Virus record (IMG/VR): IMGVR_UViG_3300042507_001132
Coordinates: 1 to 37,136 of that record
From: a virus
Reading direction: 5' to 3' (one strand)
DNA length: 37,136 nucleotides
In this document: in pieces, positions 770 through 19,142 of the stretch
How the letters are laid out: each line of letters starts with the position of its first letter
How positions within the stretch are numbered: the first letter of the stretch is position 1
Position numbers and translations under genes: made by a program
The notes under the pieces: model-generated
Database searches by the model: none
Seen by the model: the letters and a program-made list of their open reading frames with translations, nothing else
What the model was told of the DNA's origin: nothing

Positions 770-792
770 AAAAAATCCTTTCAGGATTTTTT
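770..792. terminator. Bidirectional intrinsic terminator
   Basis: Ten-base perfect arms, AAAAAATCCT (770-779) and AGGATTTTTT (783-792), flank a TTC loop. The A-tract/T-tract form works on both strands. It sits 17 bases upstream of the -35 box at 809 and insulates the downstream promoter from read-through. Confidence 0.8.
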
Positions 793-808
793 GGACGAAA
801 AGAATAAC

Positions 809-838
809 TTGACAAGTGTTGCACCCATCCTTCAGAAT
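809..838 (+). promoter_or_regulatory. Forward sigma70-type promoter for the structured leader and early genes
   Basis: A perfect TTGACA -35 (809-814), an 18-base spacer and CAGAAT (833-838) as -10 predict a start near 845. The -35 lies in a small dyad, ACTTG-A-CAAGT (807-817). The same TTGACA-like/N18 arrangement occurs at 6348 and 7315. A strong terminator lies just upstream. There is no open reading frame for about 580 bases downstream, so the transcript begins with a long leader or an independent RNA. Confidence 0.6.
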
Positions 839-844
839 GTTTGG

Positions 845-1423
845 CATCGGCATCGGAACCGGCACCACCGAAAAGCGTCGGAACCGAACGAACGAGTCAC
901 CAACACACGGCAACGTGAGGTTGGCACATATCGGCTCGGTCCAGCCACACGGCAGGGTCCACAAGCCTGAAAAGGTGCGTCAAGGTCTGCGAGGTGGGGG
1001 ATGGGAGCGTTGCTACTCCGGAGTCGCTAAAGCGACGGTCGGGAAAGTGTGTCCTCCTGATACCAACCAAGGGTTGGTGAGTACGGCTTGCGAAAAACTC
1101 ACACCTTGCGTGGTTGACATAATGCCACCTTCGGTGGATTATGTCGATACAGCCGACTAGGTTCGGTCGTGGTTGGTATCGTGTTCACCTAAAGGTGAAA
1201 ACTAACGTCGGGCTTCAGGGTTTCGGTCCCTCCGACAGTTTCACTGTCGTCGCTAATGTGCGTCGACAACCGTCGTGCAGGTTTTGATGGTGAAAATCGC
1301 ACATCCCTCGCCTAGGACTAGGGTCGGACACCACCTTTAGGTGGTGGTTCCACGAGATGCAACTCTCTCGTCTAGGCACTAACCACCACAAGGGTGGTTA
1401 ACTATAATGGACGGAGGTCCACC
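845..1423 (+). ncRNA. Candidate large structured non-coding RNA or 5' leader
   Basis: The stretch has its own promoter (809-838), no convincing reading frame, and near-continuous base pairing. Helices I can see: 1015-1024 (palindrome), 1023-1028/1031-1036, 1062-1068/1072-1078, 1077-1082/1097-1102, a 13-bp bulged hairpin 1116-1129/1133-1145, 1184-1189/1194-1199, 1207-1211/1232-1236, 1234-1239/1243-1248, 1256-1262/1298-1304, 1330-1336/1339-1345, 1352-1357/1366-1371 and 1381-1387/1393-1399. A 10-bp long-range helix (1059-1068 with 1171-1180) competes with the local hairpin at 1062-1078, so two folds are possible. Size and phage context invite comparison with large ornate phage RNAs such as GOLLD and ROOL, but I cannot match their motifs by eye. 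Boundaries are inferred. Confidence 0.45.
1408..1421 (+). promoter_or_regulatory. Ribosome site displayed in a hairpin loop
   Basis: TGGAC (1408-1412) and GTCCA (1417-1421) form a 5-bp stem with GGAG as the loop, just before the ATG at 1424. The Shine-Dalgarno sequence is therefore presented, or gated, by a stem-loop. Similar layouts occur before the genes at 2004, 5023 and 7441. Confidence 0.55.
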
Positions 1424-1828
1424 ATGAAGATTGCACAACTTTCCCCCGTTGCCACGAAGTGGCAGAGTGGTCAGGTCCTGAAGGCAGGCTCAGGCGGTGC
1501 GTGGTCGGTTGTCGATGATATCGACACTCTCGGCTCGGAACGCCGAACGATTCGCCATTACGATACCGTAATGGGTGAGTTTGTCCGTCTTTCAGACGGA
1601 GAGTGGACGATGTTCCCGTTCTCCGTCGGACTTGGTTCCAAGTCCGACCAAGACGGCATGAACACACTCCTTCAGAGTGTCGATGCTGGACTTCGGTTCT
1701 TCCGGAACGGAGTTCCGCGATACTCTCTCAGCCGTACTGGTCGACCTGTTGCCCTGTCTTTCGACAGGAACCGGACGATGGGCGACTTCGTCGCTGACCA
1801 TAACGGCATGTGGAGCCGTGCGAAGTAA
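1424..1828 (+). CDS. Conserved phage protein of unknown function (RTIRHYDT / GSxSDQxGMN motifs)
   Basis: A 134-residue protein. The start at 1424 is chosen over an upstream ATG at 1394 because a GGAGG lies seven bases upstream. Landmarks are RTIRHYDTVMGEF near residues 41-53 and GLGSKSDQDGMN near 69-80, then a Tyr/Arg-rich segment. I recognise this combination from many phages of actinobacteria and archaea, always without assigned function. It looks soluble, with no signal or membrane segment. The coding sequence itself holds at least nine perfect hairpins, including an 11-bp one (1625-1635/1638-1648, two-base loop), so synonymous codon choice seems constrained by base pairing. It is the first gene after the long leader. 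Confidence 0.75.
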   Translation: MKIAQLSPVATKWQSGQVLKAGSGGAWSVVDDIDTLGSERRTIRHYDTVMGEFVRLSDGEWTMFPFSVGLGSKSDQDGMNTLLQSVDAGLRFFRNGVPRYSLSRTGRPVALSFDRNRTMGDFVADHNGMWSRAK

Positions 1829-1837
1829 CCACATTCG

Positions 1838-1980
1838 CAACCACTAAAGTGGTTGGGGCTACTGGTTGTGTCTCTGCTATCGTGTAGAGATGCGAGGTTC
1901 GATTCCTCGCGGTCCACTACTCCTGACGGAGTAACGGCAGGAAAGTCCTGCCACAATGCACCACCGGAGGTGGTACATTG
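1838..1980 (+). ncRNA. Back-to-back hairpins with a tRNA T-arm-like element; possible small structured RNA
   Basis: The gap between two genes is almost entirely paired: 1838-1845/1848-1855 (8 bp, AA loop), 1871-1877/1884-1890, 1893-1897/1905-1909, 1918-1923/1928-1933, 1936-1942/1946-1952 and 1954-1965/1969-1980 (one mismatch). The third is a canonical tRNA T arm: a 5-bp CGAGG/CCTCG stem closing the 7-base loop TTCGATT, followed by CGGTCCAC, which resembles an acceptor strand. I cannot assemble a whole tRNA: the preceding hairpin has a 7-bp stem and 6-base loop instead of an anticodon arm, and no good 5' acceptor partner is nearby. It could be a degenerate tRNA, a tRNA mimic or a tRNA-derived attachment core. 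Confidence 0.4.
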
Positions 1981-1985
1981 ACCAG

Positions 1986-2007
1986 CCATATTGGAGGCAC
2001 ATTATGG
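1986..2007 (+). promoter_or_regulatory. Ribosome site and start codon within a short stem-loop
   Basis: CCATA (1986-1990) pairs with TATGG (2003-2007). The stem includes the ATG at 2004, and TTGGAGG lies in the loop. This supports the start chosen for the AAA+ gene and repeats the loop-displayed ribosome site seen at 1408-1421. Confidence 0.45.
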
Positions 2008-3281
2008 CAGCACAACCCGCACCGTGGATTACCGAGGTCGACAAGTCGACCGGCATGGTGACCTACAATCGTAAAGGTTCCACCTTTACCGAGCATTGGT
2101 CGGTCCTTGACAAGGTCGCCAAAATCACCCTCGCCAAGTTCCTTGGCTTCAAGTTCACTGGCATGACCCCACTGAGGTGGGACCTTGCCGATATCGACAC
2201 GGCAATCTCGGACATTCTGTCCGGTTCCAAGAACCTGCCCACACCGAAGCCACAGCCGACGAAGTCGGCACAACGTCAGGAGGACAACATGACACCACCG
2301 AAGGTGGAAAAAGCCATTCAGGACCTGCTGGACGCAGTCCAAACTCAGGGCATCGACAAGGACGCAGTCCTTGCGATTGTGAATGAGGCGGTCGACCCGT
2401 TGGGTCGGTCGGTCGACGCAATCGCTGTCGATGTCGCTTCTGTCATCGCTCAGGTCGGAGACCTGACCGATGCGGTCGCCAAGGTCCGACCCCAAGTCAC
2501 CCAAGTCCACATTCAGAACCAGCCCGTGAAGGAACTTCACGGTGTCCAACACGCCGTGTTCCCCAAGGTGCTTTCAGCACTTGGAGCGAGGCTCTCCATT
2601 ATGATGGTCGGTCCTGCCGGTACCGGCAAAACCACCATCGCCAGCCGTGCGTCGGAAGCGTTGGGCTTGGAGTTCTCCTCCAAGTCCTGCACCTCACAGA
2701 CGACGGAGTCGTCGCTGGTCGGATTCATCCACGCCGGAGGCGAATATGTCGGAACGGAGTTCCGCAAGAGGTTCGAACACGGTGGCGTGTTCCTGCTGGA
2801 TGAGGTCGACAATGCGAACCCCAACGTGTTGGGGGTTCTCAACTCGGCTCTCGCCAACGGCACCATGGCGTTCCCCGATGGGATGGTGAAGCGTCATGCA
2901 GACTTCGTCTGCATCGCTGCTGGCAACACCTATGGGAATGGTGCCACCGCCGAATATGTCGGACGTAATCCCATCGACGCAGCCACGAAGGACCGCTTCG
3001 TGTTTGTCGATGTGAACATCGACGAGGCGGTCGAAGGTGCGATGCTGGATGCGGTCGGGTTGGACAGCACCATCGCCTCCCGTTGGCTGTCGGTGGTTCG
3101 TCAGGCTCGGTCCAATGTGCAGACCTACGGTCTGAAGGTCATCGTGTCGCCCCGTGCCACCGAAGGTGGCGCACGGCTCCTGTCGGCAGGCTGGACCCTC
3201 ACGGATGTGGTCGATGCCACCATCCTCAAGGGTGCGAAGCCCGACCAAGTCGCCAAGATTCTCGAAGGCGTGACCCTGTAA
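2004..3281 (+). CDS. AAA+ ATPase, MoxR/CobS-like
   Basis: A 425-residue protein. The C-terminal two thirds is an AAA+ module: Walker A GPAGTGKT at 203-210, Walker B VFLLDE at 262-267, sensor-1 Asn in AAGNTYG near 308, and an ATKDRF segment with a likely arginine finger near 331. The pattern matches the MoxR/CobS branch, ring-forming chaperone-like ATPases that usually remodel a partner protein. The N-terminal ~95 residues are unlike that family and end at an internal ATG (2289) with its own perfect AGGAGG, so a shorter 330-residue form may also be made. The next gene (3332) is the likely partner. The gene is packed with perfect hairpins, for example 2071-2089, 2524-2542 and 2896-2914. The target in the cell is unknown. 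Confidence 0.85.
   Translation: MAAQPAPWITEVDKSTGMVTYNRKGSTFTEHWSVLDKVAKITLAKFLGFKFTGMTPLRWDLADIDTAISDILSGSKNLPTPKPQPTKSAQRQEDNMTPPKVEKAIQDLLDAVQTQGIDKDAVLAIVNEAVDPLGRSVDAIAVDVASVIAQVGDLTDAVAKVRPQVTQVHIQNQPVKELHGVQHAVFPKVLSALGARLSIMMVGPAGTGKTTIASRASEALGLEFSSKSCTSQTTESSLVGFIHAGGEYVGTEFRKRFEHGGVFLLDEVDNANPNVLGVLNSALANGTMAFPDGMVKRHADFVCIAAGNTYGNGATAEYVGRNPIDAATKDRFVFVDVNIDEAVEGAMLDAVGLDSTIASRWLSVVRQARSNVQTYGLKVIVSPRATEGGARLLSAGWTLTDVVDATILKGAKPDQVAKILEGVTL
2278..2291 (+). promoter_or_regulatory. Internal ribosome site for a shorter AAA+ product
   Basis: AGGAGG (2278-2283) lies five bases before an in-frame ATG (2289-2291), codon 96 of the AAA+ gene. It would give a product lacking the N-terminal extension but keeping the full ATPase module. 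The site is as strong as those of real gene starts here, so it may also mark an old fusion point between two genes. Confidence 0.5.
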
Positions 3282-3296
3282 TGGGGTCACGTTCTT
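3269..3296 (+). terminator. Stop-codon-spanning hairpin, terminator-like
   Basis: CGTGACCC (3269-3276) and GGGTCACG (3284-3291) pair perfectly. The TAA stop of the AAA+ gene (3279-3281) lies in the 7-base loop, and TTCTT follows. The T-run is weak, so this may trim or stabilise the mRNA 3' end instead of terminating fully. The portal gene's stop codon (28374-28376) lies in a hairpin loop in the same way. Confidence 0.45.
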
Positions 3297-3331
3297 CACA
3301 CACCATTCACACCACACACTCAGGAGGAATC

Positions 3332-4165
3332 ATGCGAGTCATTCACACCACCAAGGCGAACCACATCGAATCTTTCGATTCGCTTTACGAAATGGCGCAA
3401 TATGCCAAGGCTAACCCGAAGCCTCAGTCATCGGAGAACGGGTCGGAAGACTTCACGGGGTCTGCCTCCCTTCAGGAGGCGACCGACCTTGCCCTGCATG
3501 GTTGGGCGGAGGTTCGACCGGAGGTCGATGCGCTGGTCGATGACCTTAATGAACGTATCGCCGGAGTCATGTCCGACCACTTCGTGGTCCACCATGATGT
3601 GACTGGTGCCGACGTAAACGTCGGGCTGTTCATGTCCGGTGAGCCGGAGTGCATGATGCAGTTCGTACAGGAGCCGGAGGCTCGGATGGGTCGCGTTGTC
3701 AAGGTGCTGGTCAACGGAGTGACCAACGCTCGGACCCCTAAGGAACACATCCTGAAGCGTGGTGCCGGTGTCATCGCCTTGGTGAATACGTTGCACCTCA
3801 TGGGGGTCGGTGTCGAACTGTGGTTCGAGTCGCCCATCCAAGGCACTGACCGTCGCACATATTCGACGGTCTGCAAACTTCACGACAGTGAACAGCCGTT
3901 GGATATCGACAACATCATGTTCGCTCTCGCTCACCCGTCGATGCTGAGGCGCCTCGTGTTCTCAGTGCAGGAACGCTCCGAGTACCAACGCCAACAGCGT
4001 GCCTTCACGGGGCAGGGCTACGGCACCTGCACCGACCTTGCACTGGACAAGGTCATCGACTTCGATGTCAAGGTCGAACGGCTGGACTACCGTGACCCCA
4101 TCGTGGACAATCCAATGGATTGGATTGTCTCCAAGGTGACCGGCTTGGGGTTGGTCACGGAGTGA
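3332..4165 (+). CDS. Conserved phage protein paired with the AAA+ ATPase (DUF7192-like)
   Basis: A 277-residue soluble protein. The ATG at 3332 follows CAGGAGGAAT at good spacing. The middle part (roughly residues 60-240) resembles a family I associate with phage AAA+ ATPases (DUF7192, moderate certainty), with a GEPxCMMQF segment and a DIDNIMFALAHPSMLRR segment. It lies 50 bases after the MoxR-like gene and is probably co-transcribed, which fits the ATPase-plus-partner pairing known for MoxR systems, where the partner is often a VWA protein. I do not see a clear MIDAS (DxSxS) motif, so a VWA assignment is not supported. Short hairpins remain frequent in the DNA (e.g. GACCAC ttc GTGGTC near 3577). 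Confidence 0.65.
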   Translation: MRVIHTTKANHIESFDSLYEMAQYAKANPKPQSSENGSEDFTGSASLQEATDLALHGWAEVRPEVDALVDDLNERIAGVMSDHFVVHHDVTGADVNVGLFMSGEPECMMQFVQEPEARMGRVVKVLVNGVTNARTPKEHILKRGAGVIALVNTLHLMGVGVELWFESPIQGTDRRTYSTVCKLHDSEQPLDIDNIMFALAHPSMLRRLVFSVQERSEYQRQQRAFTGQGYGTCTDLALDKVIDFDVKVERLDYRDPIVDNPMDWIVSKVTGLGLVTE

Positions 4166-4215
4166 CCGTAGGGGTTCCCCGTCCACCGTGCCTCAGGTGG
4201 GCGGGGCGTAGCCCC
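4153..4215 (+). terminator. Hairpin cluster at gene end, possible terminator
   Basis: Three stems follow one another: GGTCAC gga GTGACC (4153-4167), which covers the TGA stop, an 11-bp stem (4177-4187/4196-4206, one wobble) and GGGGC gta GCCCC (4203-4215, competing with the previous stem). No T-run follows, so classical intrinsic termination is doubtful. mRNA 3'-end protection or attenuation is equally possible. Confidence 0.4.
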
Positions 4216-4263
4216 ACTGGATTCGCAATACGAATATACACAACTACAGAATAGGAGAATGTA

Positions 4264-4716
4264 ATGTTTTATAATGTACGAAAGAGCGATGCTCTTTTCA
4301 TGCTGGCTGGTTTTGTCTTCGCCTTGGCGGTGACAATCATTTCGGCACGGCTAGGTGGTGGCGACCATGTTGGGGCGTGGATATTCACTATCGCCTTGTG
4401 TGGTGGTGCATGGTTCACGTTCGGCTGGCTGGTGTGGGATGCGCTGACTCGTGTCGATGGGTGGGATAATAGTGCTGGCTCATACTCTAAGGAGTATGTG
4501 GTTTATGGTGTTACTGTTCGCGTCGTCGTGACTCACCAATATGCTGACTGTTACACAGTCACATTATGGCACGCCGACGTTGACCCGTTCGACGGGTTCG
4601 ATTCGTGGGCACTTATCTCAGCATATGAATCCTACGGTACGCTATTAGATGTGTTGTACGATGCTGAACAGCAGGGCGATGCGTCCGCATACTACGGGTC
4701 GAATGACCTGTTCTAG
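4264..4716 (+). CDS. Predicted membrane protein, two transmembrane segments
   Basis: A 150-residue protein with ATG at 4264 after AGGAGAATGTA. Two hydrophobic segments are visible, at about residues 10-29 and 38-59, followed by a soluble acidic domain of about 90 residues rich in Tyr and Asp. I do not recognise the family. Its location among early genes, far from the lysis genes, argues against a holin. A membrane-anchored takeover or exclusion role is possible but speculative. Its codons still carry small hairpins, e.g. CATACTC/GAGTATG near 4482-4499. Confidence 0.6.
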   Translation: MFYNVRKSDALFMLAGFVFALAVTIISARLGGGDHVGAWIFTIALCGGAWFTFGWLVWDALTRVDGWDNSAGSYSKEYVVYGVTVRVVVTHQYADCYTVTLWHADVDPFDGFDSWALISAYESYGTLLDVLYDAEQQGDASAYYGSNDLF

Positions 4717-4730
4717 GAGGGGGTGACATA

Positions 4731-4937
4731 ATGACAGAAGAAAACACCGAAGGTGGGAAACATTCAGTAACGTTTTTCACCGTAGACGGAACGTTCGGCT
4801 GTGCGCATAGTGAATGTGTGCGTGTCGTTGAAACGACACGGTTCACGAAAGACGATTGGGATGTGATTCTCAATGCGTCGGACAGTGAACGCATGAACGT
4901 CGCACTAGAGATTGCGAAGCAACGTAATCCCGATTGA
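4731..4937 (+). CDS. Small hypothetical protein
   Basis: A 68-residue acidic protein, ATG 14 bases after the previous stop with GGAGGGGG upstream. No family recognised. It has a central CAHSECVRVVETTRFTKDDW region and an Asp/Glu-rich end, with no membrane segment. Its codons include a near-perfect 9-bp hairpin (4821-4829/4832-4840). Tight spacing with the membrane-protein gene suggests one operon. Confidence 0.55.
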   Translation: MTEENTEGGKHSVTFFTVDGTFGCAHSECVRVVETTRFTKDDWDVILNASDSERMNVALEIAKQRNPD

Positions 4938-5005
4938 CGGATGTAACACCCATCATCTAGAATGGTGGTGGGTGTCATCATCTGCCCATCGGGGGCAGAA
5001 CCCAA

Positions 5006-5025
5006 CACACTGGAGGTGTGAAATG
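5006..5025 (+). promoter_or_regulatory. Ribosome site partly in a hairpin loop
   Basis: CACAC (5006-5010) pairs with GTGTG (5016-5020) around TGGAG, so GGAGG is partly in the loop, three bases from the ATG at 5023. It supports the internal start over an upstream ATG at 4912. A second hairpin, CTGCCC/GGGCAG (about 4982-4997), lies just upstream. Confidence 0.45.
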
Positions 5026-5604
5026 TTGAAAGCAGGAGTGTTCTTTCCAGCCGGTACCGTCGAAGGTGCCGACCCCATTTTTTACGATGGGTACATGGAC
5101 ATTCAGGATGCGGTCGGTGGCTTGTTCACCACTGTGGAGAACGAGCAGGTCATCAAGGGTCAGCATATTGCGTTGACCGGATTCCTTCCGGATGAAGTGT
5201 ACGAGCGTGACGAAACCACAATGAACTGGTTTGCATCGGCACTGTTCGGATACGAACTGCACGGTCCTTGCGTCGTCGCATGGCACCTGTCCCCGAACGG
5301 ATTCAAGGACGGGGATGTGTACGACATGCCCGACTACATGACAGCGTTCCTGCTTAGGGACTTCGTCAACGGTGTTGTCTCCGCTTACAGCGAGGCGACT
5401 GCGGTAGCCGGTCTCATTGGCATGGCGATTCAGGAAGGCGTGCTGTCCGAGGTCGAAGCGACCATCATGATGGAATACATTGAAGCATCCACCGAAGGTG
5501 AGTTGGACGACATGGACGAGGACCTCAAGTTTGAGGTACTGGACTTGATGAACCGTATCGAAGCGTTCGCCATTATGAAAGGACGGGAAGCGCGTGGCAA
5601 GTAA
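5023..5604 (+). CDS. Hypothetical protein, DUF3846-like N-terminus
   Basis: A 193-residue acidic protein. The start at 5023 has GGAGG nearby, while the upstream in-frame ATG (4912) has none and overlaps the previous gene. The first ~70 residues, with a YMDIQDAVGGLF segment, resemble DUF3846, a small domain common in phage and plasmid proteins of actinobacteria (moderate to low certainty). The C-terminal half is helical and very acidic (EASTEGELDDMDEDL near 158-172). No catalytic motif is evident. The gene overlaps the next small zinc-ribbon gene by 11 bases. Confidence 0.55.
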   Translation: MLKAGVFFPAGTVEGADPIFYDGYMDIQDAVGGLFTTVENEQVIKGQHIALTGFLPDEVYERDETTMNWFASALFGYELHGPCVVAWHLSPNGFKDGDVYDMPDYMTAFLLRDFVNGVVSAYSEATAVAGLIGMAIQEGVLSEVEATIMMEYIEASTEGELDDMDEDLKFEVLDLMNRIEAFAIMKGREARGK

Positions 5605-13922: not shown

Positions 13923-16900
13923 CTATTTGTTCGGCAGGATAAGCCCACGGTCTTCCAAAACCTTGGCAAAATCCTTGAGAGTGAACTGCCGGTTGATAGC
14001 CTCACCACGCTGTTGCTGTTCCCCAACATTACGGATAGGAACACCAAACCAGTTGGCGATGCTAGAGAGTTGTCGCTCGCTATAGGATTCCTTGCCACCC
14101 ACGGCACCACCGCTCAAGCGTTGTGCCTGCGAAAGAGTGGGAACCAAAGCGTTCGGAATATATTGTGCCTTGTTGCTAATCAACAGGGTGCCATCTTTGT
14201 CACGCTTACCAATCCAGTCGAAGCCGAGCAGGTCGCCCAAATAGGCGACCGCAGCATCCACGCCCTTAGCCTCTTGGTACTTCTCGGTGAACGGGATATC
14301 TGTAGAGAACTGCTTGTTGGCAATCAGTTCCAGTGGTACCTTAACTATGGGTGTGACCTGCCCCAACAAACGTTGGGGGTTGGTAAACTGGGCAAGTTGC
14401 GAAGACAACCTGTTGAACGGCAGGTCGGGTGTCGCCACCCAAGTGCCACCGATACCCAATGCGTTCATTTCTTCCATCCAGCGTGGCAAGAAAATGTTGG
14501 AATCGACCGGCATCGCTTCCTGCACCTTTTGGTGTGTCAAATATACGCCGGGGCGGGTCCACTGGTTTGCAATCTGCAACGGGATGTTACGGGTTGTCCA
14601 AATCCAAAACGGCACCCACTTCTTAGCCTTCTCATCCAACGTACTCAGGTCGCTATAATCGAAATGGTACCGCTTCACTCGTGCCAACGCTTGGTCAAAC
14701 GTCATGCCCTGTTCCAACGATTCCAATGCCAACGGCATACGGACCGCCATCTCAGCCTTCTCATTCAACTTACGGAACCAGCCAGTGACCTTGTTGTTAA
14801 TGGAACGCTCAGCCCAAGTTCTGCCGATTACAGGCTCAGCCAACTCGTCCACCTGACCACCCGATGACGCAGCAGCAACCTTGCGTGCCTGCTCCAGCAG
14901 GGCACGCTCAACCTCGGGGAAATCATCCAGCCAGTTAGCACCCTTCTTCTCAATCGCCATCATCGCCTTTGCGCCACGAATAATGTTTCGCGTGGTAGTA
15001 CCAGCAATATAGTTGTTCACAGTCGCGGACATCGCATTACGAACCACAAACCCAGTCGACATCATCGCATACGTCTTAAAGAAACGCATATACCAGTCGT
15101 AGCCCTTGGCGAGATTCCCTCGCTCAGCAAGATTCCGCAACTGCAACAAGTTCGGTCGCCAAGTATCCAACAACTCTGCCGGAACCTGAACACCCAACGC
15201 CTCAATAGCCTCCCACCCGTCAAGGATGTCATCGACCATCTTGCCACCCAACTCGCCAGTCTTTGCCTTGCTCAGTTGCATAGCCGACTCGGGGATTTCC
15301 TGCGTCGACAACCAAGCCAACTTCGCCTCATCAGCATGGATAATCTTTGTCAACGCCTCGTAGACACGACGCTCATTCTCCGGCAATACACCCATCGACT
15401 CAATCGACTGTTGCACACGACGCTGCCAAATACGGGTCTGTTCCGCAGCAGCCCCGCGAGGCGGGCGCATGCGGAGAATCTCATTAAGGTTATCCACCTC
15501 ATTCTGCAATAAGACGGCAGCCTCATCATTCCAGTTCTTCAAACCCAACTGCTGGTCCATCAGCATCCCAAGACGGTCATTATAATCCATCTGACGCTTC
15601 AACAAACGCTGAGCAGTAGCCTCAGCCTTCGCATCAATACGAGCAATCTCATCCAGCATCCGCTTCTCTGCCTGCGAATACTTTGCGTCAGCCTTAGCCA
15701 GCATCTGCTGAGCCTTGTCCTTCGTCATCGTGACACGCTTACCGTCAATCGTAATGCGGACCTTGCCCGTCTGACGATACAGATTCAGCAAACCTTCCGT
15801 ATCAGTCACACGTTTCTGCGACGCACGAGACAAACCTGCAAGGCGGGCGCGTTCACTACGCGCCTGCCCCTCAAGAGTCTGCCTAGTAGCCAACCCAAGT
15901 TCCGACTCCATGATTTGGTCGGCAGCAGCCTTCATCTCCATCGAAGCATTAAGGCTTGCTGTTTCATAATCGGCTTCGACAATCGACTTCACAAACGACG
16001 AATCAGCAGTACGCTGAACAACATCACGCGGGTCGGTAGGCACCCCCTTGGGTGGCAGATTATCGCCATACTTCGGGTCCAGCAAAACAGCGAATACTTC
16101 GTCTTCCGAGTCATAGATGCCATCAGCGATAGCCCTAGGTGCGATGATACCCGACCGTGGGTCGTTCTGAAGATGGACACCAATAATGTCGTCAACAATC
16201 TGACGGGCAATCTCATCCGATTCCTCATACGAGTAACGGCTAGCAACACCACGGAAAGATTCATTCAGCGCATTAAACGCAGACTCAATCATGCCGTGAG
16301 TCAGCCCTTCCTCCGGAATCGGCAACTCGTTCAAGAAATCCAACGTCTGAATCAACTGGGTTTCCTCAGGGTACATTTCGACAAACATCGGGTCAATCTC
16401 ACCCGTGCGCTTAAAATGCACAAACTCCTCATAGAAAGTTTGCGAATCCAAACCGGCGTTCTCCATCGCCACCCGAACATAATCAGGCATAAACTCGTCG
16501 CCAAACAAGCCACGGAAATCCGCCTCACGACGAAGGTCAATCAACGACCGCTCATCAAAAGCCTGAACAGCAATATACTGCGGGTTATTCAGACTGCCCC
16601 TATCGGGAGCCGTGTCCAAAACCTTGTATGGTGCCACGCCATCAGGCAACGGCACCAACTCGTCTTCCACACCATACAACAAACCATCGGGCGCATAACT
16701 AGCGTTCATGCGCACCTCAGCAAGAGCCTCAAACCCAGCCAAATCTTCTTCAAGTTTCAACTGTGCGTCGACAAGACCCTGACGAACCTCATCATATTCG
16801 CGGGTCGTCGGCAACTCATCCAACTGCTCACGCAAAGACACCAACCGTGCCCTAACTTCACGCACCTCACGCGCAGCAGGAACCCCCTGCTTCTGCAAAA

Positions 16901-19142
16901 TACGCTCAGCCAACACATTGATATCATCCGGAATCTTCTTAGCCTTCGGATAAACTACCGCATAAATACGCTTCAGTTCTTCCGCAACAGCCAACTCAAC
17001 AGCATCACCCTTCTCAAGAGCGGTAACCAAACGTTGACGCAAACGTACCAACTCTTTATGTACCGTATTGAAATCCCCACGCTGCTGAGCCGTCTTTGTT
17101 GCAGCCGTATTACGAACATTCTGAAGTTGCGCATCAACATCGGCAAGCAAAGCCTGAACCCGAACAATCTCCTGCTCCGTCAAAGCCTGCTGCTTAATAT
17201 TGCCATCAATAACCCGACGCGCCAAACTCTGAGCGCGGTCAGCAAACTTCTTCGTACCACGCTGAACCTGAGCAACACCAGTATTAACCTTCGCCTTCAG
17301 AATCTTCTCGGTGCGCAACAACTTCGCATGCGCATCAGCCAACTCCTTGACAAGTTCCTTGTCCGGAACAACCTTCTGCGCAATCTTTGTCATCGCATCA
17401 GAACCAAAGTCCATGACGCGACGCGCCCACGCTTCGCGTCCCTTGGCAGAAGCCATCGAATACGCATACGAGTCGGCAATAGCCGACAGGCTAGTATCGA
17501 ACCACTCCTTGACACCAGTCTTTTCGAAAGCAATCTTATTCAAACCATCAATCGTTGCCTGTTCAGGGGTCAGATTTTTCACACCCATAAACTCGCCACC
17601 CACACGGGCTTTACGGTAACGGGCAGCACCAACCGCGCTGGTCAGTTCCTCCACCGACAAATCTGAAGGGTCCCAAGTGCGGGACGTAACATTTTTCGGA
17701 GAGAAAATCCAGTTCCGTGCCTCATTGGTAATCCTGTGGTGGATATAGTCATCAACAAAAGCAATCTCACGGATATTGGTACCATAATCAATACCAAACT
17801 TCCTGTAGACATCATTGACACTGTCCCGCAAGCCGTTCTGCCATGCCTTAAACTCGTCAGCCAACTGCTGAACCTCGCGGGTAGCAGCATCATAAAACGC
17901 TGGTGACTCAACAGCACGCCGAACCTGCTGTTCGGCATTCGCAGCCTCAATACGAGAAACAAGGTCTTTCACCTCAAGCACACTGTCTTTATAGACCGTA
18001 TTGCGAGTACCCTTCAGGTAACTCGCAGCACTATGCGCAGCAGCAATCTTCACAACCTCATCATCTTGGATGCCCAAGTCACGACCCAAACCGGCAGCGA
18101 CAGCAGCGCGACTAGATTTAGGTGTGACAAACTCCAAAGCCCCCGGAGCCACCTTATAAACAGCATCACCGATACTGGTGCGTGCCTTAACAAACGGGGC
18201 AGCCAACACCTCACCAGCGGTATCAGTCAACGGGATAACCTTACCAGCAAACTTGATACCAGCCTGCAAACCCTCAGCGTCACGAATGGGCTTCGGAATA
18301 GCCCAAATACCATAACGTTCAATATCGTCCAGTTTGCCCGCCAACTCCGGATACAAGTTGCGCATCGCCACGGTAGCAAACTTGTCACGCAACGCCCGTC
18401 GACCAACAGCCCCAGCAAAACCACTAGCACCCAAAGTCACCCAAGTAAGTGGGTCGGTAGCAACATCCGTTACCAACTGCGCCGGACCATCAATCCACTT
18501 AATGCCAGTTTTATAGTTAGGGTCATTATAGATTCCCCAGTTAGGGTCATTAGCGCGGTCCCACGCTTCCTGAACCGTCGTCCAGTTCAAGTCCTTCCAG
18601 TCAGTACCGCCATAAGCAAACTCGACAAGGTTACCGGCAGGCTCAGCAATAAACATTCCAGCAGACTGAATCCACCGCCCCGGCTGGGTGAGGAAATCCC
18701 CAACTCGCGCACCGCCAGTCCACGGAACCTCCTGACTAGCAACATAAACAAAAGGCTCAACGACAGGATTGACAACGTTCTCTTTAACCCAGCCCCAAAC
18801 GCCCCTGTCTGTCTTCGCACGCCCACCCTCAGAAGCAATACGCTTCGCTTCCTTCAACAACTCCTCTGTATTACCCTGCCCCCTAGCAATACGGCTAGAG
18901 ATAGTACGCAAAGCCTTATCTAGGTTTGCTTTTTCTTCATACAGACTGGACTTACCACCAGCCTCAGTGGAACCACCATAGTTAACACCCTCAACGGTAC
19001 CCATCTGCGTCGGGAACGTAGTACCCGACGGAGCAGAATACTTGTCAATACTTAGACCCGTGCCACCCTTAGGTGGCTGAGGTGTAGCACCTTTCTTGGG
19101 CGTAGGAAATGCACTGGAGAAAGGCGAGCCGTAAACCGCCAT
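13923..19142 (-). CDS. Large internal virion/DNA-ejection protein (1739 residues)
   Basis: The largest gene, at the distal end of the structural operon, where podoviruses keep their core/ejection proteins. The N-terminal ~60 residues are Pro/Gly-rich and disordered. A region at about 110-330 has amphipathic and hydrophobic stretches (NVVNPVVEPFVYVASQEVPW, ATDPLTWVTLGASGFAGAVG). Long charged coiled coils fill about 600-880 and 1120-1270. The C-terminal ~400 residues contain FKTYAMMSTGFVVRNAMSA and PFWIWTTRNIPLQIANQW, patterns I recognise from large polyvalent virion proteins of environmental podophages. No transglycosylase, RNA polymerase or kinase motif is visible. It probably enters the cell envelope with the DNA. 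Confidence 0.7.
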   Translation of the reverse strand: MAVYGSPFSSAFPTPKKGATPQPPKGGTGLSIDKYSAPSGTTFPTQMGTVEGVNYGGSTEAGGKSSLYEEKANLDKALRTISSRIARGQGNTEELLKEAKRIASEGGRAKTDRGVWGWVKENVVNPVVEPFVYVASQEVPWTGGARVGDFLTQPGRWIQSAGMFIAEPAGNLVEFAYGGTDWKDLNWTTVQEAWDRANDPNWGIYNDPNYKTGIKWIDGPAQLVTDVATDPLTWVTLGASGFAGAVGRRALRDKFATVAMRNLYPELAGKLDDIERYGIWAIPKPIRDAEGLQAGIKFAGKVIPLTDTAGEVLAAPFVKARTSIGDAVYKVAPGALEFVTPKSSRAAVAAGLGRDLGIQDDEVVKIAAAHSAASYLKGTRNTVYKDSVLEVKDLVSRIEAANAEQQVRRAVESPAFYDAATREVQQLADEFKAWQNGLRDSVNDVYRKFGIDYGTNIREIAFVDDYIHHRITNEARNWIFSPKNVTSRTWDPSDLSVEELTSAVGAARYRKARVGGEFMGVKNLTPEQATIDGLNKIAFEKTGVKEWFDTSLSAIADSYAYSMASAKGREAWARRVMDFGSDAMTKIAQKVVPDKELVKELADAHAKLLRTEKILKAKVNTGVAQVQRGTKKFADRAQSLARRVIDGNIKQQALTEQEIVRVQALLADVDAQLQNVRNTAATKTAQQRGDFNTVHKELVRLRQRLVTALEKGDAVELAVAEELKRIYAVVYPKAKKIPDDINVLAERILQKQGVPAAREVREVRARLVSLREQLDELPTTREYDEVRQGLVDAQLKLEEDLAGFEALAEVRMNASYAPDGLLYGVEDELVPLPDGVAPYKVLDTAPDRGSLNNPQYIAVQAFDERSLIDLRREADFRGLFGDEFMPDYVRVAMENAGLDSQTFYEEFVHFKRTGEIDPMFVEMYPEETQLIQTLDFLNELPIPEEGLTHGMIESAFNALNESFRGVASRYSYEESDEIARQIVDDIIGVHLQNDPRSGIIAPRAIADGIYDSEDEVFAVLLDPKYGDNLPPKGVPTDPRDVVQRTADSSFVKSIVEADYETASLNASMEMKAAADQIMESELGLATRQTLEGQARSERARLAGLSRASQKRVTDTEGLLNLYRQTGKVRITIDGKRVTMTKDKAQQMLAKADAKYSQAEKRMLDEIARIDAKAEATAQRLLKRQMDYNDRLGMLMDQQLGLKNWNDEAAVLLQNEVDNLNEILRMRPPRGAAAEQTRIWQRRVQQSIESMGVLPENERRVYEALTKIIHADEAKLAWLSTQEIPESAMQLSKAKTGELGGKMVDDILDGWEAIEALGVQVPAELLDTWRPNLLQLRNLAERGNLAKGYDWYMRFFKTYAMMSTGFVVRNAMSATVNNYIAGTTTRNIIRGAKAMMAIEKKGANWLDDFPEVERALLEQARKVAAASSGGQVDELAEPVIGRTWAERSINNKVTGWFRKLNEKAEMAVRMPLALESLEQGMTFDQALARVKRYHFDYSDLSTLDEKAKKWVPFWIWTTRNIPLQIANQWTRPGVYLTHQKVQEAMPVDSNIFLPRWMEEMNALGIGGTWVATPDLPFNRLSSQLAQFTNPQRLLGQVTPIVKVPLELIANKQFSTDIPFTEKYQEAKGVDAAVAYLGDLLGFDWIGKRDKDGTLLISNKAQYIPNALVPTLSQAQRLSGGAVGGKESYSERQLSSIANWFGVPIRNVGEQQQRGEAINRQFTLKDFAKVLEDRGLILPNK

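Follow-up and report, generated by a model that had tools for sequence, protein, structure and literature searches.

The window analysed in this study is a stretch of 37,136 nucleotides, positions 1 to 37,136 of the IMG/VR virus record IMGVR_UViG_3300042507_001132. Its proteins are of the dsDNA-phage kind and include a P22/SU10-type portal, an Mx8-type capsid and a terminase; a 1739-aa protein encoded on the minus strand (13923-19142) was without Pfam or PHROG match. The early region lies on the plus strand and runs from a terminator-like palindrome and a promoter, through an untranslated leader, into coding genes (Table 1). An AAA_5 ATPase gene followed by an uncharacterised gene, as at 2004-4165 of the window where the second gene is DUF7192, was also seen in Gordonia phage Kudefre and in MW202803. 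An earlier note on this DNA had proposed a large non-coding RNA with alternative folds at 845-1423, and the terminator palindrome, promoter, bulged 13-bp hairpin, 10-bp long-range helix and competing 7-bp hairpin that it described were all found.

Table 1. Features of the early region, in coordinates of the window
Feature	Position	Strand	Basis or remark
Palindromic (bidirectional) terminator-like hairpin, AAAAAATCC-TTTCA-GGATTTTTT	770-792		Sequence; 5' of early promoter
Early sigma70-type promoter, TTGACA-N18-CAGAAT	809-838	+	10 of 12 consensus letters
Conserved transcript 5'-end motif	843-862	+	GGCATCGGAATCGGCAACGG in relatives; window copy with 3 mismatches
Structured untranslated leader RNA	843-1407	+	Fold z; covariation in homologous leaders
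Whole hairpin-dense zone of early transcript	845-5500	+	Hairpin counts against shuffles
Long-range 10-bp helix (1059-1068/1171-1180) against competing local 7-bp hairpin (1062-1068/1072-1078)	1059-1180	+	Sequence
13-bp hairpin with one bulged G	1116-1145	+	Compensatory changes in L002; bulged G conserved
Hairpin TGGAC-ggag-GTCCA, Shine-Dalgarno site in loop	1408-1421	+	Sequence
134-aa ORF, unknown family	1424-1828	+	12 hairpins against 2.4 in synonymous shuffles
tRNA-like element	1838-1917	+	Covarying hairpins; T-arm; 3' tail GTCCACTA
MoxR/CobS-like AAA_5 ATPase gene	2004-3281	+	Hairpin-packed
DUF7192 gene	3284-4165	+	Hairpin-packed; start position approximate

The leader and its predicted start site

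The ATPase was used as a query and 34 loci were found with it in IMG/VR, while close relatives sought through the 134-aa ORF were not found, and a scan of bacterial genomes for the host returned distant ATPases only. At the nucleotide level, the 134-aa ORF has a recognisable counterpart in the nearest homologue, L002. The -35 region of the early promoter is kept in the relatives, and the 20-nt motif is placed directly after the -10 region, at the predicted start site; the letters of the upstream palindrome are not conserved in L002. In an exact search of IMG/VR, the 20-mer occurred in only 20 stretches. Of these, 13 were contigs that the ATPase query had also found, and from the other 7 the leaders of five were aligned.

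The 579-nt stretch 845-1423 folds at -235.9 kcal/mol (z -5.33), a value matched by none of 100 shuffles, and its minus strand has a fold z of -4.40. Homologous leaders in uncultured podophage-like contigs showed clear compensatory changes on the plus strand, and covariation was present in 38 of the 124 consensus pairs of the leader alignment, with changes on both sides. The consensus energy was -137.5 kcal/mol for the plus strand versus -95.2 for the minus strand. Among one-sided changes, those giving G.U were two to three times commoner than those giving A.C (23:8 and 60:27). By these several signs, i.e., covarying pairs, preference for the plus strand and excess of G.U, the leader acts as RNA, and the early operon does have a structured 5' leader at 845-1423. 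There is no plausible gene in it, as had been noted before, because the leaders of relatives often differ by indels whose length is not divisible by three. Moreover, when L002 was read by eye, the bulged hairpin and each of the two competing helices were still present with altered letters, and the alternative folds at 1059-1180 are therefore unlikely to be due to chance.

The leader comes first in the early operon, its start motif and complex fold are conserved, and structure sets in at the start site, all of which would suit a cis-acting antitermination RNA that modifies RNA polymerase, with the downstream hairpins preventing backtracking, Rho action and R-loops. The put RNA of phage HK022, likewise a structured RNA acting in cis at the start of early transcripts, consists of two small hairpins, unlike the leader described here. 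It is a known example of antitermination in phages (PMC9378689). Such a role would cover the leader but would leave the hairpins in 4 kb of translated sequence unexplained, and we consider it rather unlikely.

tRNA-like elements and known RNA families

The tRNA-like sequence reported near the leader was borne out. A canonical T-arm with a TTCGATT loop is present at 1892-1910 and is conserved in relatives. The element to which it belongs is not a tRNA, as no match was obtained for 1838-1917 with ARAGORN or RF00005. In L002 the element is kept with compensated stems; the T-arm and tail are conserved, and the 5' acceptor partner is not evident. Early-operon spacers contained elements ending in a T-arm and TCCRCTA in 26 of 32 scanned loci, the window among them; two of the remaining six loci begin too close to the gene.

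Two types were distinguished. Type A combines an acceptor-type stem of 7 bp, a D-like arm of 5 bp with the loop AGGCA, and a T-arm with TTCAATT. Where a tRNA has its anticodon arm, type A has a helix of 12-13 bp with a 3-nt loop and a conserved internal loop, UGGAC/UAGAG. The acceptor was outside the minimum-energy fold in four members; the acceptor pairs of A3 (444-449/532-537) and the T-arm are contained in the leader alignment, where the acceptor is nearly invariant. Type B lacks a D-arm and consists of an acceptor, a hairpin that covaries and a T-arm with TGCRATT. Here 95.6% of cells were paired versus at most 48% in any slid version, and the acceptor showed C-G to G-C switches in four of eight. 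In the general sense, tRNA-like structure is therefore present in the relatives, where an acceptor-type stem closes on the T-arm with covariation, while a cloverleaf with a 7-nt anticodon loop was found neither in the window element, with ARAGORN or RF00005, nor in the type A and B elements of relatives, which had no match in Rfam, tRNA and tmRNA models included. A covariance model built from a mixed tRNA-like alignment retained 6 pairs only and was discarded.

The tRNA-like domain of tmRNA, bacterial Y RNA, viral TLS and mascRNA have in common with these elements the acceptor-like stem and the T-arm with a TTCRA loop, and with one type also a D-like GG loop. They differ from type A in its long helix and from type B in its variable hairpin and missing D-arm. 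Type B elements are located about 100 bp before the ATPase gene in L022, L024, L027, L028, L019 and L031. In type A, for example at L024:5119-5215, an invariant hairpin tip, GCATTATGC, resembles the CATTATG start context of early genes, which may be a coincidence.

The earlier note had also suggested membership of, or kinship with, the large RNAs GOLLD and ROOL, which are likewise phage-borne, large, elaborately folded and near tRNA-like sequence. This was not supported by covariance-model searches. No family of Rfam 15 was matched at the gathering score in the window or in seven relatives, and a lax search of 780-2010 gave weak unrelated matches only; neither the ROOL model nor that of GOLLD, with its universally conserved 3' domain, matched in any of these searches. 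GOLLD is often near real tRNA genes, whereas no ordinary tRNA was detected near the window leader by ARAGORN, and among seven relatives scanned only L009 and L017 have one upstream of the leader. The features described for GOLLD and ROOL (PMC12286853) were not found in our leader. Moreover, those are discrete RNAs, whereas the leader belongs to a coding operon, is continuous with its genes and has tRNA-like elements, themselves not tRNAs, as integral parts. A stand-alone large ornate RNA of this type, be it a member or a relative, is thus hardly credible, and the leader and the tRNA-like elements represent RNA families absent from Rfam. The tRNA genes of L009 (4759-4831) and L017 (2509-2581) are genuine and lie upstream of the early promoter, with the anticodon GTT read by eye in L009.

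Hairpin packing of the early coding genes

The abundance of helices had been regarded as a property of 845-1423. The helices are real, but an equal or higher density was found in the downstream coding genes. When perfect stems of at least 5 bp with loops of 3-8 were counted, overlaps included, there were 49-55 hairpins per kb between 1 and 3 kb of the window versus 6-8 in dinucleotide shuffles, with a gradual fall to background by about 5.5 kb; short perfect hairpins were 5-9 fold above shuffles, and those in coding sequence were as dense as non-coding ones. The densest point of the window has 21 non-overlapping hairpins per kb, whereas the maxima were 4 to 9 in T7, lambda, Mx8, N4 (first 40 kb), P12053L, a Gordonia phage, C72C1, MS2, Qbeta and the GenBank relative ct52p938. 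A regular spacing was rejected, as gaps were barely more even than random ones (CV 0.96 vs 1.03) and showed no fixed period. Because the packing continues past the leader through the 134-aa ORF, the ATPase gene and the DUF7192 gene, it is a feature of the early transcript as a whole. The structured RNA proposed to start at about 843 is thus conserved and covarying but is not a self-contained non-coding RNA, since about 4 kb of coding sequence is packed in the same way. An odd tRNA with a two-base anticodon, called by ARAGORN at 4004-4095 on the minus strand, antisense inside the DUF7192 gene, is probably a by-product of hairpin density.

In the ATPase gene, 19 hairpins with stems of at least 6 bp were counted, versus a mean of 3.2 and a maximum of 7 in 200 synonymous-codon shuffles, and the hairpins are therefore made by codon choice and not by the protein or the composition. 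All 21 homologous ATPase genes tested, or 20 of them by a cautious count, had more hairpins than any of their 60 synonymous shuffles, the smallest margins being 7 vs 4 in L019 and 10 vs 8 in L015. Against codon-preserving shuffles, the folding z of the 21 genes ranged from -1.6 to -9.5 (mean -5.8).

The dense zone lies at the same place in nearly all close relatives (43-65% amino-acid identity, best segment); it is weak in L029 and L030 and absent in the most distant L033-L035. In 18 loci anchored at the start site, density rose sharply from about 0.4-0.9 per 250 bp upstream to 2.2 in the first 250 bp and 4.4-4.6 between +500 and +1000, and was at baseline again by about +5.2 kb. The GenBank relative MW202803 has the same early gene order without a comparable zone (maximum 9/kb), so the zone is clade-specific.

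In codon alignments, about 60% of hairpin positions were common at roughly 76-81% nucleotide identity, versus about 4% expected, while below 60% identity they were mostly replaced by different ones. Watson-Crick replacements on both sides of a stem numbered 58 vs 6.5 expected at 86-99% identity, 89 vs 19 at 78-86% and 159 vs 39.5 at 70-78%, ratios which are not p-values, related sequences being non-independent. Perfect stems, very short loops and confinement to one region could also be caused by quasipalindrome template switching, which writes perfect hairpins without function. However, only 2 of 11 two-change cases had both changes on the same arm, versus 50% expected, hairpin positions were kept by changes on both arms, and coding hairpins do not fall behind non-coding ones in density. 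This explanation is very improbable.

Proposed selection as RNA and its possible role

For the hairpins in coding genes, the RNA-level reading is weaker than for the leader, because the wobble preference is slight (one-sided G.U:A.C 248:202 in the three closest identity bands), the folding z hardly differs between the strands and there are almost no GNRA loops. The strand z-score was rejected as a discriminator between RNA and DNA, being uninformative: even ssRNA phage genes differ only mildly between strands. Stems that are perfectly Watson-Crick and show next to no wobble bias, together with an enrichment of C(GNA)G triloops, which are unusually stable in DNA, would fit hairpins acting as DNA, either extruded or single-stranded at an origin or at a site of packaging or entry, or recognised as in N4. 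However, the sharp onset at the RNA start, the fading along the direction of transcription and the plus-strand preference of the leader consensus are against a role as DNA. Loops are also strand-asymmetric (TNNG 38 vs CNNA 4; TTT 26 vs AAA 3), and cumulative GC skew has no clear extremum at the zone. A phage-encoded RNA polymerase that reads hairpins was considered as well, and no polymerase family was matched in the proteins scanned. A DNA role appears unlikely; the start-site onset, the fading direction and the placement of Shine-Dalgarno sites favour the transcript over DNA.

Shine-Dalgarno sites were inside hairpins of at least 5 bp in 80 of 154 cases in the zone, versus about 3 of 180 in other phages; the fraction was 11 of 30 further downstream in the same phages, and in the window such hairpins are much rarer (3 of 17) than in relatives. 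This display of the GGA of the Shine-Dalgarno site in hairpin loops raises the alternative of binding-site arrays for a phage or host regulator that binds RNA, such as a CsrA/RsmA-like protein or a translational repressor of the phage, whose operators would be the Shine-Dalgarno hairpins. Short-hairpin runs, some with GGA loops, are likewise found in CsrB/RsmZ, and L024 had a weak match to RsmZ/PrrB (E 0.009). However, this match reached 21.8 bits versus a cut-off of 44, and the loops are of the GNA and TNNR kind (among 304 triloops, GAA 35, GTA 26 and GGA 23), with no single consensus. A regulator array is decidedly unlikely, and a CsrB-like sponge was rejected, as the loops are not GGA-specific; they also lie inside coding genes. 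The RsmZ/PrrB match (L024:5566-5697) is accounted for by series of short hairpins that contain GGA. In the early region of L019-L032, the Shine-Dalgarno site is in the loop or 3' arm directly before the start codon, e.g., TTACAAC-tggag-GTTGTAA-CATTATG, and the habit extends outside the dense zone in these phages.

A structure that is conserved, evolves by compensatory changes and sets in sharply at the predicted start is best read as that of an early polycistronic mRNA selected mainly as RNA, a reading to which we give an even chance. The transcript from about 843 would begin with a 560-nt structured leader and carry tRNA-like elements in its intergenic spacers. Short Watson-Crick hairpins, perfect for the most part, would follow one another at intervals of some 30-60 nt in the leader as well as in the coding genes, fading by about 5 kb. 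Selection on the RNA would keep the earliest mRNA without long unpaired stretches. Its folding may stabilise the mRNA and shield it from agents that seek single strands, such as host RNases, Rho and RNA-guided or toxin-type defences; the Shine-Dalgarno sites in hairpins would set translation, and the tRNA-like elements could punctuate processing via RNase P/Z. It is a more tentative and somewhat doubtful suggestion that hairpins in coding genes and tRNA-like punctuation serve these dsDNA phages as an armour of the earliest mRNA, so that transcripts produced before the host is taken over leave scant single-stranded target for RNases, Rho and RNA-targeting immunity.

Extreme conserved RNA structure in coding genes has so far been associated with RNA viruses, and a higher hairpin density in one dsDNA-phage transcript, beginning at the predicted start, would point to a pressure, so far unrecognised, on the mRNAs that a phage makes first in a cell, and bear on how phages survive RNA-level defences. 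Searches of open-access papers found no comparable system in dsDNA phages. The early-transcript structure seems to work most like the genome-scale ordered RNA structure (GORS) of RNA viruses. As in the ssRNA phage genomes of MS2 and Qbeta, structure pervades coding sequence by synonymous choice, with the folding energy of the 21 ATPase genes beyond that of codon-preserving shuffles, and is conserved more as a property than as single stems. However, GORS is spread over the genome of an RNA virus, whereas here the phage has dsDNA and the structure is confined to one transcript, over the early 5 kb or so, where perfect short hairpins reach 21 per kb versus at most 7 in MS2 and Qbeta.
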